Of a stretch of 38,233 bases of DNA, positions 32,711-38,233 are shown in pieces (the stretch's first letter is position 1; every line of letters starts with the position of its first letter). The notes beneath the pieces are model-generated. The model was not told where the DNA came from, searched no databases, and worked only from the letters and a program-made list of their open reading frames with translations. The DNA is taken from positions 1 through 38,233 of the forward strand of contig CAJQNZ010000006.1 of the NCBI GenBank assembly GCA_905479835.1, in the 5' to 3' direction. This DNA comes from an uncultured Flavobacteriaceae bacterium. GTDB lineage: Bacteria; Bacteroidota; Bacteroidia; Flavobacteriales; Flavobacteriaceae. A program made the position numbers and the translations under genes.

Positions 32711-34024
32711 TTATTTCATTAAAAAAAATTTCAATTCTTCATAAGTATTGATACTTGTGGCAACTTTCTTTTTATCTAGTACAGATTTTATCTGTTCAGG
32801 AATTTCAATCTTAGAAGTAATTTTTTCATCCATCACAGGTAAAAACTTCACAGGATGTGCTGTTTCCAAAAACACATATTGCGTGTTGTCATTTTTAGTT
32901 TGATGTTCTTTAATTCCGAGATAACCTATTGCACCGTGAGGATCAGCAATATAATTATACTCATTGAACAGTTGCAGCATTGACTCTCTAGTTTCCTCGT
33001 CTGTAAAGGAATAGGATTGAAGGTTGCTTTTTAATTTTTCAAAATCATTGTCATGTAACTTTTCGATTCGTACAAAATTACTTGGGTTACCGACATCCAT
33101 TGCATTTGATATTGTAGCAACTGAAGGCTTTGGATTGTAATTTCCAGTTTCAAGATAGGATGGAACTACTTTATTGGCATTGGTCGAAGCGATAAATAAT
33201 TCAATAGGCAATCCTAGTTTTTGTGCCATCATTCCAGCACAGATATTTCCATAATTTCCACTAGGAACTGAAAACACCAATTTTTTCACTTCGACTCCGC
33301 TCAGTGACCTTTGTTTTTTAAGTTGTTTATATGCAAAAGCAAAATAGAACATCTGTGGTAACCAACGAGCAATATTAATAGAGTTGGCAGAAGTTAATTG
33401 CATCTTATCAGTAATTGAAGTATCCAAAAATGCTTTTTTTACCATCGCTTGGCAATCGTCAAATACGCCATCAACTTCAAGAGCCTCAATATTCTGACCA
33501 AGTGTTGTCAATTGCTTTTCTTGTACATCACTCACTTTTCCACTTGGATATAGAATCACAACATTAACTCCTTTTACTCCAAGGAAGCCACTAGCAACAG
33601 CGCCTCCAGTATCTCCAGATGTTGCAACTAAAACAGTTACTTGATTAGGATTTTCTTTATTAAAATAGGATAAACAACGCGCCATAAATCGTGCGCCGAC
33701 ATCTTTAAACGCCATCGTAGGTCCATGAAATAATTCTAAGGAATAAATATCATTTTCTATAGGTACAAGCGGAAAATCAAATTGCAATACATCTTCAATA
33801 ATTGCCTTCAAGTCTTTCTCAGGGATTTCATTTCCTACAAATTGCTGAATCAATTCATGTGCAATCTCATTATTTGAATACGATTCAATATTTTCAATAA
33901 ATGACTTTTTAATAGGAGTGATACTTTCAGGAAAATAAAGACCTTTATCTGGAGCAAGACCTTTTATAACGGCATCTTGAAAAGAAACTTTAGGAGAATT
34001 ATTGTTAAGACTATAATATTGCAT
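32711..34024 (-). CDS. thrC: Threonine synthase
   Basis: Final step of threonine synthesis: phosphohomoserine to threonine, with PLP. The 437-residue protein opens MQYYSLNNNSPKVSFQDAVIKGLAPDKGLYFPE. The PLP lysine lies in HGPTMAFKDVGARFMAR, the phosphate-binding loop in TSGDTGGAVASGF, and a second conserved loop is VPSGNYGNICAGMMA. Residues 239-246 (RSLSGVEV), just before the SVPSGNYG strand, are encoded by a copy of the palindromic repeat family and look like an in-frame insertion in a surface loop. It is the last gene of the thrABC operon, 6 bases after thrB. Confidence 0.96.
   Translation of the reverse strand: MQYYSLNNNSPKVSFQDAVIKGLAPDKGLYFPESITPIKKSFIENIESYSNNEIAHELIQQFVGNEIPEKDLKAIIEDVLQFDFPLVPIENDIYSLELFHGPTMAFKDVGARFMARCLSYFNKENPNQVTVLVATSGDTGGAVASGFLGVKGVNVVILYPSGKVSDVQEKQLTTLGQNIEALEVDGVFDDCQAMVKKAFLDTSITDKMQLTSANSINIARWLPQMFYFAFAYKQLKKQRSLSGVEVKKLVFSVPSGNYGNICAGMMAQKLGLPIELFIASTNANKVVPSYLETGNYNPKPSVATISNAMDVGNPSNFVRIEKLHDNDFEKLKSNLQSYSFTDEETRESMLQLFNEYNYIADPHGAIGYLGIKEHQTKNDNTQYVFLETAHPVKFLPVMDEKITSKIEIPEQIKSVLDKKKVATSINTYEELKFFLMK
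33287..33309 (-). repeat. REP-like repeat arm inside thrC
   Basis: The coding strand contains CACTGAGCGGAGTCGAAGTG, matching the core of the repeat between thrB and thrA (ACTGAGTGGAGTCGAAGT) and related to the one at 25462-25522. Only one arm is present. Its length and phase keep the thrC frame open, adding RSLSGVEV at residues 239-246. Confidence 0.75.
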
Positions 34025-34030
34025 TTCGTT

Positions 34031-34957
34031 TTATTTATTGATGATTCTTACACCATCAGTATTAATTTTTGTAACATAGATATCAAATTTGATATCTGTT
34101 TTTGAATAAACTTCTTTCATTGCATTTGCAACTTTATTAGCAATATCAGATCCTTTGGATAATGAAAAAATAGAGGGTCCTGAACCTGATATTCCACAAC
34201 CTAATGCTCCAGCATTTAATGAAGCAATTCTTATTTCTTTAAAATGTGGGATTAATTGTGATCTATGAGGCTCAACTATATAATCGTGTAACGAATCCGC
34301 AATCAGATCATAATCATTTGTGTATAATCCACTTATAAAACTACCAACATTTGCCCATTGTTTTATAGCGCTTGAGAGCTCAATTTTAACAGGTAAAATA
34401 CCTCTTGCTTCTGAAGTTTTAATTTCGATCTGAGGATGTATTACTGTAGCGTACAATTCAGATGGAGTAGGCAATTCAACTATTTTTAATGGATCAACAC
34501 TTTTTACCAATGTAAATCCTCCAAACAGTCCAGGTGCAACATTATCGGCGTGTTCAACTCCACTGGCAACCGCTTCTCCTTTCATTCCAAATAGCGTTAA
34601 CTGCTGTTTGTCAAATGTTTTTCCTAGGATTTCATTAATTGCAAATACTGCTCCTGATGCGCTAGCTGAAGAACTTCCAACACCACTTCCAGGTTTTATA
34701 TTTTTATAAATTTCTATTTCTACTCCAAAATCTGCTTTTGCAGCTTCCAATATAGCTAATGCAGCAACTCCTGCAACATTCTTTTCAGTTTCAAAAGGCA
34801 AGTCAGCTCCAACTATCTTGGTTATTGTAACCCCTTTTTCTTTAGTTTTTCGGACAACCATTTCATCACCCTTAGTATCTAAGCAGAAACCTAATACATC
34901 ATAACCACAAGAAACATTGGCAACTGTTGCTGGAGAAAATATTTTTATTTCATTCAT
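34031..34957 (-). CDS. thrB: Homoserine kinase
   Basis: Phosphorylates homoserine to O-phosphohomoserine, the substrate of ThrC. The 308-residue protein belongs to the GHMP kinase family: the N-terminal strand KIFSPATVANVSCGYDVLGF, the ATP loop KPGSGVGSSSASASGAV near residue 90, and the C-terminal glycine-rich motif CGISGSGPSIFSLS near residue 255 are all present. It lies between thrA (79 bases upstream, with a REP-like hairpin in the gap) and thrC (6 bases downstream). Confidence 0.96.
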   Translation of the reverse strand: MNEIKIFSPATVANVSCGYDVLGFCLDTKGDEMVVRKTKEKGVTITKIVGADLPFETEKNVAGVAALAILEAAKADFGVEIEIYKNIKPGSGVGSSSASASGAVFAINEILGKTFDKQQLTLFGMKGEAVASGVEHADNVAPGLFGGFTLVKSVDPLKIVELPTPSELYATVIHPQIEIKTSEARGILPVKIELSSAIKQWANVGSFISGLYTNDYDLIADSLHDYIVEPHRSQLIPHFKEIRIASLNAGALGCGISGSGPSIFSLSKGSDIANKVANAMKEVYSKTDIKFDIYVTKINTDGVRIINK

Positions 34958-35036: not shown

Positions 35037-37487
35037 TTACTTATTTCCAATTCGTATAATATCTGCAAATAGTCCTGAAGCCGTAACCTCTGCTCCAGCA
35101 CCTGCTCCTTTAATAATAAGAGGCTGGTCTGGATACCTATCTGTATAAAACAGCACAATATTATCAGAACCTTCCAGATTGTAAAATGGATGATCTACTG
35201 AAATATGTTGCAATCCTACTTTCCCTTTTCCATTATCAAATTCTGCTACATATTTCAATCTACAACTTTTCTTTTCAGCCTCAATTCTTAATTGATTAAA
35301 ATGTGCTGCATGAGGTTCCAAAGTATTCATGAAATCTTCAACAGAATCGGCTTCTATACTTTCTTTGGGTAGAAAAGAATTGTTATCTATATCTTCAAGT
35401 TCCAGTACATTTCCACTTTCTCTAGCTAAAATAAGAATCTTTCTCATTACATCTACGCCACTCAGGTCAATTCTTGGGTCAGGTTCCGTGAAACCTTGAA
35501 TTCCTGCTTGTTTTACAACATCATAAAACGAAGTTTTTTCATTGAAATTATTAAATATAAAATTAAGGCTTCCTGATAAAACAGCCTGAATTTTATGTAC
35601 TTTATCACCAGATAATATTAAATTTTTCAAAGTATCAATAATAGGTAATCCTGCTCCAACGTTGGTCTCAAACAAGAATGGAGCATCATATTTTTTTGAT
35701 AAATAGTTCAATTCTTGGTATTTTTCATATTCTGACGAACAAGCAATTTTATTACAAGTTACAACCGCAATACTGTTTCTTAAATAATCAGCATATCGTG
35801 TCGAAATCTCTTTATTGGCCGTGTTGTCTATAAAAATACTATTGCGATAATTTAATTCTTTAACCTTATTTAAAAAGTTATCCAAATTCAATTTTTCACC
35901 ATTATCAACTAAATCTTTTTTCCAATTTTCTAAATCAATTCCGTCAGCATTAAAAAACATTTTTTTAGAATTGGAAATACCTATAACTCTCACGTCCAAT
36001 TTTTGCTTCTCCTGAAGATATTGTTGCTGTTTGCGAATCTGTTCCAATAATTTCCCACCTACATTACCAACACCAATAGCAAATAAATTTAATTGTTTGT
36101 TATTTCCTTCAAAAAATACATTATGCAATGTGTTTAATGCTTTTTTAATATCTTTTTGATCAACAACAGCGGTAATATTTTTTTCAGATGCACCTTGTGC
36201 AATTGCTCTGATATTCACATTATTTCGTCCTAATGCGCTAAACATTTTTCCGCTCACACCTTGATGATTTTTCATGTTTTCTCCTACCAATGCTATGATA
36301 GAAAGATTGTCCTCAATAATCAATGGATCAATGATTTTTTGACTCATTTCATATGCGAATGCTTGATTGAATAAACTTTCTGCAAGGGCAACATCTTTAC
36401 TATCAATTCCCATACATAAAAAATGTTCTGAAGAAGCTTGAGTAACTAATGAAACATTAATTTTAGCATTTGAAAGCACTTCCAAAATGCGCTTGGTAAA
36501 ACCTGGAATACCTATCATTCCACTACCTTCAACAGTAAGTAAAGCAATATTCTCTATATGACTTATTCCTTTAGCAGGAATTGAATTATCATTTTTTTTA
36601 CTTGTAATAAGTGTTCCTTTTGCTTCTGGTTCAAATGTGTTTTTTATGCGAATAGGAATTTCTTTTTCTAAAACTGGCTGGATCGTAGGAGCAAAGAGCA
36701 CTTTTGCACCAAAATGTGATAGTTCCATTGCTTCTTTATAGGAAATATGCACAATTGGCTTGGCTTGCTTTACAATTTTTGGGTTGGCACTATACATTCC
36801 GCTTACATCTGTCCAAATCTGTAATTCGCTAGCATTTAATGCTTTTGCAAATATGGATGCTGTATAATCTGAACCTCCTCGACCAAGGGTTGAATTTTCG
36901 CCATTAAAAGTCGAAGAGACAAATCCTGGTGCAAGAAGTATCTTAGATTTTTCAAGTTTATAATATTCTTGAATTTTTTTTTCGGTAATGGCAAAATCTA
37001 CTTTGGCATTGGTATAGTTTTCATCAGTTATTATGAGTTCTTGTGAGTTTTTAAAGGAAGCACTAAGATTTCTATCTTTCATAGCTTCTGAAATTATATA
37101 GGACGAAAGGATCTCTCCGAAACTAGAAACCTTATCATTGGTCTTATTAGAAAACTCATTAATTAAATAAATTCCTTTTAAAATATTTTTTAATTTGTCA
37201 AAATAATTTTTTACTTGAGTAACAACTGATTCTTGGATATTCCCTTGAATTAATTTCTGTACAGTTTCTATGTGACGATTTTCAAGCGCATCTATGTCAG
37301 AGATATATGAAGTATCTTTTCTTTCTGCTTTCCTTCCTGATTCCAACAGAACATCTGTAGATCCACCTAGAGCAGAAACCACTACAATTATGGGTTCGTT
37401 TATTGAACTATGTATGGCAATATCAATTACTTTATTGATATTGTCTGCATTTGCAACTGATGTACCTCCAAATTTTAAAACTTTCAT
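35037..37487 (-). CDS. thrA: Bifunctional aspartate kinase/homoserine dehydrogenase I
   Basis: An 816-residue fusion that performs the first and third steps of the Thr/Met/Ile branch from aspartate. The N-terminal aspartokinase (MKVLKFGGTSVANADNI; GRGGSDYTASIFAKAL) is followed by two ACT regulatory domains (~310-460, with LLTVEGSGMIGIPG and IIALVGENMKNHQGVSG). The homoserine dehydrogenase has the Rossmann motif GVGNVGGKLLEQI, the catalytic-region TNVGAGLPIIDTLK and LSGSLNFIF, and GFTEPDPRIDLSG. ACT domains imply threonine feedback inhibition. It is preceded by a leader peptide and attenuator and followed by thrB and thrC. Confidence 0.97.
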   Translation of the reverse strand: MKVLKFGGTSVANADNINKVIDIAIHSSINEPIIVVVSALGGSTDVLLESGRKAERKDTSYISDIDALENRHIETVQKLIQGNIQESVVTQVKNYFDKLKNILKGIYLINEFSNKTNDKVSSFGEILSSYIISEAMKDRNLSASFKNSQELIITDENYTNAKVDFAITEKKIQEYYKLEKSKILLAPGFVSSTFNGENSTLGRGGSDYTASIFAKALNASELQIWTDVSGMYSANPKIVKQAKPIVHISYKEAMELSHFGAKVLFAPTIQPVLEKEIPIRIKNTFEPEAKGTLITSKKNDNSIPAKGISHIENIALLTVEGSGMIGIPGFTKRILEVLSNAKINVSLVTQASSEHFLCMGIDSKDVALAESLFNQAFAYEMSQKIIDPLIIEDNLSIIALVGENMKNHQGVSGKMFSALGRNNVNIRAIAQGASEKNITAVVDQKDIKKALNTLHNVFFEGNNKQLNLFAIGVGNVGGKLLEQIRKQQQYLQEKQKLDVRVIGISNSKKMFFNADGIDLENWKKDLVDNGEKLNLDNFLNKVKELNYRNSIFIDNTANKEISTRYADYLRNSIAVVTCNKIACSSEYEKYQELNYLSKKYDAPFLFETNVGAGLPIIDTLKNLILSGDKVHKIQAVLSGSLNFIFNNFNEKTSFYDVVKQAGIQGFTEPDPRIDLSGVDVMRKILILARESGNVLELEDIDNNSFLPKESIEADSVEDFMNTLEPHAAHFNQLRIEAEKKSCRLKYVAEFDNGKGKVGLQHISVDHPFYNLEGSDNIVLFYTDRYPDQPLIIKGAGAGAEVTASGLFADIIRIGNK

Positions 37488-37570
37488 CGGTATTTTACTT
37501 TATATATTGTTATTATTTATAATTGTTTTTTTGTTTACGAATGTAAAACATATGAAATCGGATGATATGT

Positions 37571-37594
37571 AAAAAGAGATACCCTTAAAGGGTA
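37571..37594 (-). terminator. Leader terminator (attenuator) of the thr operon
   Basis: On the minus strand TACCCT-TTA-AGGGTA forms a 6-bp stem with a 3-base loop, followed by TCTCTTTTT. The stop codon of the leader peptide lies in the stem-loop. It sits about 85 bases before the thrA start. An outer pairing of ATGATAT (within the leader ORF) with ATATCAT (37562-37568) can enclose it. The stem is short, so termination strength is uncertain. Confidence 0.65.
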
Positions 37595-37650
37595 ATAATA
37601 GTTGATATCATAGAAATAGACACCATTGAAGTGGTGCATGTAGTGTCCAT
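37585..37650 (-). CDS. Thr/Ile/Met-rich leader peptide of the thr operon
   Basis: A 21-codon ORF starting at ATG 37650 and ending at TAA 37587-37585. It begins MDTTCTTSM and ends MISTIITL. Six of 21 residues are Thr, four Ile and three Met, exactly the end products of the ThrA pathway, as in the unrelated E. coli thrL. Two Thr pairs (codons 3-4 and 6-7) and the ATT ATT ACC run near the end are candidate stall sites. Codons 6-10 form a hairpin (CACCA with TGGTG, 37621-37636), and the last codons enter the terminator stem. A -7 promoter motif lies 29 bases upstream. Low charged-residue content and position make it a regulatory, not functional, peptide. Not annotated by length-limited gene finders. 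Confidence 0.8.
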   Translation of the reverse strand: MDTTCTTSMVSISMISTIITL

Positions 37651-37678
37651 AAAAATGAATGTTTTATTTGACATAAGG

Positions 37679-37686
37679 CAAATGTA
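37679..37686 (-). promoter_or_regulatory. Putative -7 element of the thr operon
   Basis: The minus strand reads TACATTTG, matching TAnnTTTG. Predicted initiation is about 25 bases before the leader ATG, giving a short 5' end and a leader RNA of roughly 190 bases before thrA. A clear -33 TTTG is not seen. Confidence 0.6.
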
Positions 37687-37736
37687 AGTCTATTTTTTAA
37701 ACGATAATATTATTTTAAAATTTTTATATATTTCAT

Positions 37737-37784
37737 AAAATAAGTCCAATAAATAATTTAATAATAATCTACAGGACTTATTTT
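37737..37784 (-). terminator. Inverted repeat after lysA, probable terminator
   Basis: AAAATAAGTCC (37737-37747) and GGACTTATTTT (37774-37784) are perfect 11-base inverted repeats with a 26-base AT loop. The structure begins 24 bases after the lysA stop codon; T residues are mainly within the stem. It separates lysA transcription from the thr promoter. Confidence 0.6.
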
Positions 37785-37807
37785 CTAATGATACTATAAT
37801 GATAGAA

Positions 37808-38233
37808 CTATTCTAGATCTATTGCAACTTCTTTTTTAACAATATCTTCAAATGTTTCTCTTTCTCGTATTAAATAATCTTCTCCATTATAAATTAATAC
37901 TTCTGTAGGTCTATATCTTGAATTATAATTGGAAGCCATTGAAAAACAATAAGCACCAGCATTATCAAAACATAAGATGTCTCCTTCTGTAATTTCATTA
38001 ATTCTACGGTTAGAGCCAAAAGTATCTGTTTCACATATGTAACCAACAACTGTATAGTAACGCTCTCTTCCTTTAGGTTTAGATAAATTTGTAATATGAT
38101 GATAAGAGTCATACATCATAGGACGTACAAGGTGATTAAAACCACTATCTATTCCAGCAAATACTGTTGAAGTTGTCTGTTTAATTACATTTACTCTTGC
38201 CAAAAATTTTCCAGATTCACTTACTAGAAATTT
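37808..38233 (-). CDS. lysA: Diaminopimelate decarboxylase, C-terminal part
   Basis: Last step of lysine synthesis (meso-diaminopimelate to lysine), PLP-dependent. The frame is open to the right edge, so the N-terminal barrel is outside the window; about 141 residues are seen. The C-terminal β-domain of the alanine racemase-like group III decarboxylases is clear: FAGIDSGFNHLVRPMMYDSYHHI, the active-site Cys in CETDTFGSNR, and the conserved Tyr in NAGAYCFSMASNYNSR, which contacts PLP and substrate. The TTG at 38203 is an internal Leu codon, not a start. It lies upstream of the thr operon in the same direction, an aspartate-family cluster. Confidence 0.9.
   Translation of the reverse strand, partial: KFLVSESGKFLARVNVIKQTTSTVFAGIDSGFNHLVRPMMYDSYHHITNLSKPKGRERYYTVVGYICETDTFGSNRRINEITEGDILCFDNAGAYCFSMASNYNSRYRPTEVLIYNGEDYLIRERETFEDIVKKEVAIDLE

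Follow-up and report, generated by a model that had tools for sequence, protein, structure and literature searches.

In E. coli, thrABC is preceded by thrL, a Thr/Ile-rich leader peptide presumed to sense tRNA charging, and the stop codon of this leader lies well before the terminator; the corresponding Rfam family is Thr_leader. A different arrangement is found in the E. coli pyrBI attenuator, which senses UTP rather than charged tRNA and whose stop hairpin is masked directly by a ribosome that closely trails the polymerase. Comparative genomics by Vitreschak (2004) is said to have found thr attenuators with Thr/Ile(/Met) leaders, including some cases in Bacteroidetes/Chlorobi, as well as Met-containing thrA leaders that reportedly occur in Pasteurellales with one AK-HSD gene.

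Leaders whose regulatory codons overlap or adjoin a candidate terminator hairpin, as they do here, have been described for actinobacterial ilvB, whose exact mode of regulation is unclear according to the authors (PMC1262725), and for Corynebacterium ilvB-II (PMC10272879). The actinobacterial ilvB leaders differ from the thrA element in their Ile/Val/Leu codons, their poly-U terminators and their phylum. Closer to the present locus, leader-peptide attenuation at amino-acid operons has been reported in Flavobacterium psychrophilum, together with conserved 5′ elements without Rfam matches, pheA and hisG being named (PMC9723704); this species shares its genus with many of our named loci, and the main text of that report mentions neither threonine nor thrA. 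A regulon survey limited to Rfam families proposed that amino acid attenuators may stem from gamma-proteobacteria, with few transfers (PMC3766115). Judged by title and opening abstract, none of the matches listed from the open literature concerned a threonine leader in this phylum.

Here we describe a leader upstream of thrABC that is, we think, rather likely to be a ribosome-sensed threonine attenuator in which the ribosome would mask the second hairpin (P2) directly, with no antiterminator. Direct masking would be shared with pyrBI. Compared with E. coli thrL, the stop codon lies inside P2, neither antiterminator nor T tract is conserved, and there is no Rfam match over the element.

A leader region between lysA and thrA

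The window, i.e., the whole stretch of 38,233 nucleotides analysed here, is part of a 1.9 Mb assembly in 76 contigs. On its minus strand, thrA, thrB and thrC follow one another, with the end of a lysA-like gene upstream of thrA. Read 5′ to 3′ on that strand, the lysA–thrA interval contains a TACATTTG box, an ATG, hairpin P1, the Thr/Ile/Met-rich end of a short ORF, hairpin P2, a ACATATCATCC box, hairpin P3 and the ATG of thrA:

37679..37686, minus strand: −7 promoter box TACATTTG of TAnnTTTG type (sequence; F. johnsoniae consensus, PMC6847099)
37585..37674, minus strand: leader peptide ORF MSNKTFIFMDTTCTTSMVSISMISTIITL, 29 codons plus stop, its ATG 4 nt past the −7 box
37620..37637, minus strand: P1, putative pause hairpin in the ORF at about codon 13; GCACCA-CTTCAA-TGGTGT, 6 bp with a 6-nt loop (covariation at 6/6 pairs)
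37588..37611, minus strand: Thr/Ile/Met-rich ORF end M-I-S-T-I-I-T-L, the final ACC CTT lying in the 5′ arm and loop side of P2
37580..37594, minus strand: P2, putative non-canonical transcription stop; TACCCT-TTA-AGGGTA followed by TCTCTTTTT, −5.8 kcal/mol
37585..37587, minus strand: stop codon TAA of the leader ORF, within P2
37560..37570, minus strand: linear box ACATATCATCC (family consensus YATAT), 7–18 nt past the GGGT of P2 (conservation)
37533..37549, minus strand: P3 hairpin GTTTTAC-ATTC-GTAAAC, not followed by a T tract (covarying in 21 hand-picked family loci)
35037..37487, minus strand: thrA, bifunctional aspartate kinase/homoserine dehydrogenase I, 816 aa (NF006959, 1039.8 bits)
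34031..34957, minus strand: thrB, homoserine kinase
32711..34024, minus strand: thrC, threonine synthase (TIGR00260)

The layout proposed in the initial annotation, with the TACATTTG promoter motif, two hairpins and an ORF stop inside the second of them, all ahead of thrA, is confirmed on the minus strand. From the ATG to P3, the leader folds better than its shuffled versions (z −2.7; 2/200 shuffles as good).

Comparing window positions 36500–38233 with all 4227 Rfam families up to an E-value of 5 gave two chance-level matches, both outside the element, and at gathering score no family lay over the element in 17 further loci. Insofar as this comparison goes, the sequence is unrelated to E. coli thrL, as had been supposed, and there was likewise no match to a T-box or amino acid riboswitch in the window and the 17 loci. 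Nor do these loci match RF01692 (Bacteroid-trp), presumably a trp leader. This RNA was described as a candidate structured RNA of Bacteroidetes (PMC2864571). The sole Rfam match in the 17 loci is a Flavo-1 RNA (RF01705, 72.7 bits) at 488–565 of L081, about 1.8 kb upstream of the element.

Start and codon content of the leader ORF

The ORF had been annotated as 21 codons long, beginning at an internal second ATG (37650). A TAnnTTTG box with an in-frame start downstream is present in 85/99 element loci. The start codon lies 3–11 nt past this box in 80 of these 85 named loci (79 ATG, 1 GTG), and, counting from the box-defined start, the best hairpin begins at codon 12–14.7 in 69/80 loci despite widely differing peptides. 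Based on this spacing and this hairpin position, the most likely start in the window is 37674, yielding an ORF of 29 codons with 7 Thr and 5 Ile. Enrichment of Thr, Ile and Met together, relative to the proteins of the window, is similar for both versions (P ~4e-6 for 29 aa, ~8e-6 for 21 aa).

In F. johnsoniae, where the box consensus is TAnnTTTG, transcription starts 4–5 nt past the box and most mRNAs are leadered; mRNAs of this phylum naturally have no Shine-Dalgarno sequences (PMC6847099). Since the window's ATG lies 4 nt past its box, the gap suggests that the leader mRNA is leaderless or nearly so. A leaderless start was rejected as a trait of the family as a whole, the box-to-start gap being 16–22 nt in most other genera (44/57).

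Thr codons crowd toward the end of the ORF in a strictly frame-specific manner. At codons −5 to −1 before the ACC of P2, Thr frequencies are 0.64, 0.68, 0.82, 0.79 and 0.81 in frame across 99 loci, vs. no more than 0.01 in either of the other frames of the same loci, which were picked by hairpin alone (codon 0 is ACC by construction). The 68 family loci, from which a Thr/Ile criterion had excluded one locus, give 0.46 in frame vs. 0.012 and 0.000 in the other frames. Third bases of the Thr codons vary (entropy 1.07–1.57 bits), so it is the amino acid that is kept, not the letters.

P1 is a conserved RNA helix within the leader ORF

P1 exhibits double changes at 6/6 pairs, with 56 double-changed cells vs. 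10.3 in shuffled alignments and none of 500 shuffles reaching 56, in a set of 74 distinct rows from 80 start-anchored loci; slid versions of P1 fail the same test. P1 is a true RNA helix. Its single-locus signal in the window falls within the top 2.5% against dinucleotide shuffles and the top 5% against codon shuffles, but locus by locus P1 is less striking, its best-hairpin score passing 5% of dinucleotide shuffles in 56/99 loci and in only 19/68 of the family sample.

The leader combines a short ORF upstream of the operon, rich in codons for products of the pathway, with conserved RNA hairpins within and after that ORF (P2 weakly covarying, P3 in chosen loci). Together, the covariation of P1 and the frame-specific run of Thr in the last codons support ribosome-based threonine sensing, and the Thr-codon leader peptide suggested before thrABC turns out to be family-wide. 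Compensatory changes, which had been proposed as a check on both hairpins, are evident in P1 and fall short of significance in P2 on MAFFT alignments.

P2, the stop codon and the YATAT box

P2 is almost invariant across loci, and its covariation was not significant on two MAFFT alignments. Counts made after the register was fixed, which are the only ones to reach significance, found the outer pair matched in 88/145 loci vs. 65 shuffled (0/2000 as high) and the inner pair, with longer loops, matched in 103/104 vs. 99.9 shuffled (P 0.0015).

The overlap between P2 and the stop codon is a conserved feature. Measured from the start of ACC, 84 of 167 loci have the stop at 6 nt, 36 at 12 nt, 41 at 15 nt and 6 at 18–27 nt, which places it 6–15 nt past the start of the last Thr codon in 161/167. 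Given the size of its footprint, a ribosome positioned at the stop or over the last few Thr codons would cover P2, which fits the earlier suggestion that the ribosome itself blocks this hairpin.

By standard measures P2 would be a weak terminator. In the window it scored terminator-like where shuffles average 0.0 (P1 scored terminator-like too), with a stability of −5.8 kcal/mol compared with a median of −7.5 in 99 loci, mostly without a T tract: the 8 nt after P2 contain on average 4.3 T in the 99 loci and 3.4 in the 68 further loci, vs. 6/8 in the window. Requiring at least 6 T in 8 nt and a stem of −8 kcal/mol or better, we found a canonical terminator between P2 and thrA in 0/99 and 3/68 loci, all three being P2 itself. 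The same test was positive in 15/15 ilvD regions, one hisG leader and 3/3 thrA leaders of another family. The terminator-like hairpin had been rightly placed over the ORF stop. Its T tract is not a conserved part, and a conserved intrinsic terminator is not supported, the canonical form occurring in only 3/167 loci. In L296, upstream of a homoserine kinase gene, P2 again has canonical form, with a stem of −13.2 kcal/mol before UAUUUUUU. Since P2 is the terminator wherever a normal one is present, P2 is best read as a putative, non-canonical transcription stop.

Beyond P2, a YATAT box lies 7–18 nt downstream in 144/167 loci, vs. 2–6/167 in four windows further down. Given that P2 is weak and has no T tract in most lineages, polymerase may stop at P2 plus YATAT, or a factor (Rho, NusG) may help. 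Pairing of the box with the codons before P2, which forms 7 bp in the fold of the window, was rejected as being no better than in codon shuffles (p ≤ 0.05 in 1/83 loci of clades A to E and 3/68 family loci).

A P3 hairpin without a T tract follows the box in many family loci, passing 5% of shuffles in 32/68. It covaries (10 cells vs. 2.0 shuffled) in 21 family loci hand-picked for showing P3. P3 was rejected as a terminator, with no canonical terminator at this position in any scored locus.

Distribution of the element

The pattern ACCC-N3..6-GGGT is found upstream of thrA in 87/93 loci from the genus of the window and named genomes (L017 duplicates L011 and was left out). The six loci without it are L002, which is a different aspartate kinase, L013, L014–L016 and L065. 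In L014–L016, thrA lies close behind another gene, which NCBIfam scores as threonine ammonia-lyase IlvA in L014 and L015.

Because the named loci lean toward Flavobacterium, we sampled the family of the window (f1, probably Flavobacteriaceae judging by its named neighbours) by genus. This sample comprised 110 genomes from 109 genera, 87 of them with a ThrA-like gene, from which 80 upstream regions were used, one per genus (left out were G000, G001, G034, G116 and G120, covered elsewhere, and G195 and G196). The element, defined as the P2 hairpin with preceding Thr/Ile codons, precedes thrA in 68/80 regions. This bears out the expectation that conserved Thr/Ile codon runs, and the ORF and hairpins with them, would be present upstream of thrA in close relatives. 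Among the 12 regions without the element, L203, L212, L240 and L266 have an IlvA-like end 19–35 nt before thrA, L275 has the hairpin with few Thr/Ile codons, and L268 and L272 have divergent leader ends. Where thrA sits close behind ilvA with no leader of its own (L014–L016, L203, L212, L240, L266), it is perhaps under an ilv leader. A strict pattern was discarded as a measure of prevalence and replaced by the genus sample: it found 18/299 family genomes and is too strict, since the box drifts to TATAT in other genera.

Outside the family, the element is patchy in the phylum. In a sample of 40 regions chosen for spread, the hairpin is present in 13, i.e., 6/8 from the family and 7/32 from outside it. 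Of the latter, L110 belongs to a second family of the order, L111 and L112 to one of the class, and L122–L125 to one of a different class.

The element is specific to thr genes in near relatives: a model of it (R1) has matches at E ≤ 1e-3 in 14/40 relatives, with a single match per genome that in every case lies immediately upstream of the mapped thrA. Further out, the element precedes aspartate kinase ORFs in L314, L315, L316 and L318. A wide search with the model was weak: with stricter filters applied, only 12/197 genomes from the class scored at E ≤ 0.05; among loci L314–L321, 5/8 lie before thrA- or thrB-like ORFs and 3/8 are unrelated. In L296 and L320, the element stands before thrB (homoserine kinase) rather than thrA.

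Methionine codons and AK-HSD copy number

In the genus of the window, Met accounts for 23% of the final 12 codons (11/11 loci), vs. 0–2% in four other clades. One AK-HSD gene at E ≤ 1e-100 is seen in each of the 12 genomes of the genus that gave a match, half of which (6) are 90% complete or better. Across 68 genera, Met is present in the leader of 9/17 single-copy vs. 4/51 two-copy AK-HSD genomes (Fisher P 2e-4, uncorrected). On the ThrA tree, five independent pairs comprise three that agree, none that disagree and two ties (p ~0.25). The proposal that Met codons let the leader integrate three end products is therefore favoured by the uncorrected association and not significantly so by the tree-corrected test, and with only five pairs we regard it as plausible but unproven. 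Within the genus of the window, the codon content is suggestive of Met sensing. The element itself is missing in 10/27 single-copy vs. 2/53 two-copy genomes (uncorrected); corrected for the tree, this relation is not significant (eight independent pairs, two in the same direction, none opposite).

Leaders of other amino acid operons

One shared element for other amino acid operons was considered and rejected, the ilvD leaders and one hisG leader carrying classic terminators. We scored 15 ilvD regions, 12 of them from the genus of the window (L145, with about 200 nt upstream on its contig, was left out); the strong terminator seen in L142, L143 and L146 may instead be that of the upstream gene. 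In L147, L151–L155 and L157, all from that genus, Ile-rich leader peptides (e.g., MKNTILNIISIIVLVIIIT) are followed by strong terminators (e.g., CCTCCCTTTTTTAAGGGAGGTTTTTTT), and the ilvD leaders of the genus are apparently ordinary branched-chain attenuators. The hisG leader MKNRNTHHHFYTGSQAR of L174 contains three His codons and is followed by a strong terminator some 80 nt ahead of hisG; the family of the window thus apparently has a his attenuator as well.

In another family of the class (f3, L114–L116), Thr/Ile leaders (e.g., MIFNTSIITTIIITTGINQRG) have a run of Thr/Ile codons before thrA, as in the window, but differ in a separate terminator of −15.7 to −21.2 kcal/mol with a T tract, in the classic layout. 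The classic thr attenuator and the compact type hence coexist within one phylum.

A proposed mechanism and its alternatives

From the conserved anatomy, the covariation of P1, the frame-specific Thr run, the stop–P2 overlap and the box spacing, all of them observed, we infer stalling, direct masking, termination at P2 and a role for the box. RNA polymerase would start just upstream of the leader ATG and probably pause at P1, allowing a ribosome to load. With charged tRNA-Thr (and tRNA for Ile and Met) in ample supply, the ribosome would quickly reach the stop codon inside P2 and depart, whereupon P2 would form behind the polymerase and halt it near the AU-rich box. Under threonine shortage, the ribosome would instead stall at the Thr codons reaching into the 5′ arm of P2, cover P2 with its footprint and keep the hairpin from forming, so that transcription would enter thrABC with no need for an antiterminator hairpin. 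As the Thr codons extend into P2 and the stop falls within or directly after this hairpin, a threonine-starved ribosome would sit on P2, and this seems the simplest account both of the crowding of Thr codons and of a second P1 arm that needs no match to P2.

The initial annotation had noted a weakly visible antiterminator, and an E. coli-type attenuator, with P1 as 1:2, an antiterminator as 2:3 and P2 as terminator 3:4, would make use of it. Pairing of P1 arm 2 with the 5′ arm of P2 does amount to 4 bp in the window (GGTG/TACC), whose P2 has the 6 T noted above, and to about 4 bp or more in 24/80 loci; on average it is above shuffled (5.1 vs. 3.1), and some lineages may therefore use a classic switch. 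The pairing is absent, however, in 41/80 loci while P1 is kept by covariation, which speaks against conservation of the pairing and against a classic antiterminator switch; moreover, the terminator is not conserved, whereas strong terminators do occur in ilvD leaders of the same genus and in thrA leaders of another family. As an account of the element, we consider the classic attenuator improbable. Less so, though still on the unlikely side, is a version in which the Thr codons sense as proposed and P2 with YATAT acts as a pause, from which Rho or a NusG-type factor would release the polymerase when P2 is free of ribosomes. Such a version would suit the 164/167 loci with no canonical terminator, the tight P2–box geometry (144/167 within 7–18 nt vs. 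2–6/167 in four other windows) and the P3 hairpin further down, but it sits less well with the canonical P2 terminators of some lineages, and no factor site was identified.

Two further explanations dispense with the ribosome. In P2, sequence is better conserved than pairing, as would be expected if a threonine repressor bound the palindrome ACCCC-TTA-GGGGT as its DNA operator and the ORF were incidental, yet the ACCC-to-GGGT stretch varies from 4 to 7 nt, and an operator would leave the Thr run, its frame and P1 unexplained; we deem it very improbable. We give practically no credence to an artefact of chance or composition in an AT-rich genome, for which the low GC content speaks and nothing further, given that position, frame and covariation are conserved across many genera.

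Returning to direct masking by a stalled ribosome, the stop-in-P2 layout, recurrent across the family, most likely allows a threonine-starved ribosome to turn on thrABC with none of the standard stop-and-antistop parts of E. coli. More tentatively, and with rather more doubt than confidence, we propose a distinct Bacteroidota threonine attenuator, in which the stop-codon hairpin and YATAT at RNA-polymerase distance may form a dedicated, possibly factor-assisted pause or termination signal masked by the stalled ribosome, and in which the leader codon mix (Thr, Ile, Met) may follow the end products served by a single AK-HSD enzyme.

If the proposed mechanism is true, a phylum without Shine-Dalgarno sequences would couple translation to transcription tightly enough for threonine to be sensed by stalling, and would do so with neither the textbook antiterminator nor a T-tract terminator. 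The element would also offer a natural family of variants in which to ask what makes RNA polymerase halt at P2 and how closely codon content follows the duplication of the enzyme.
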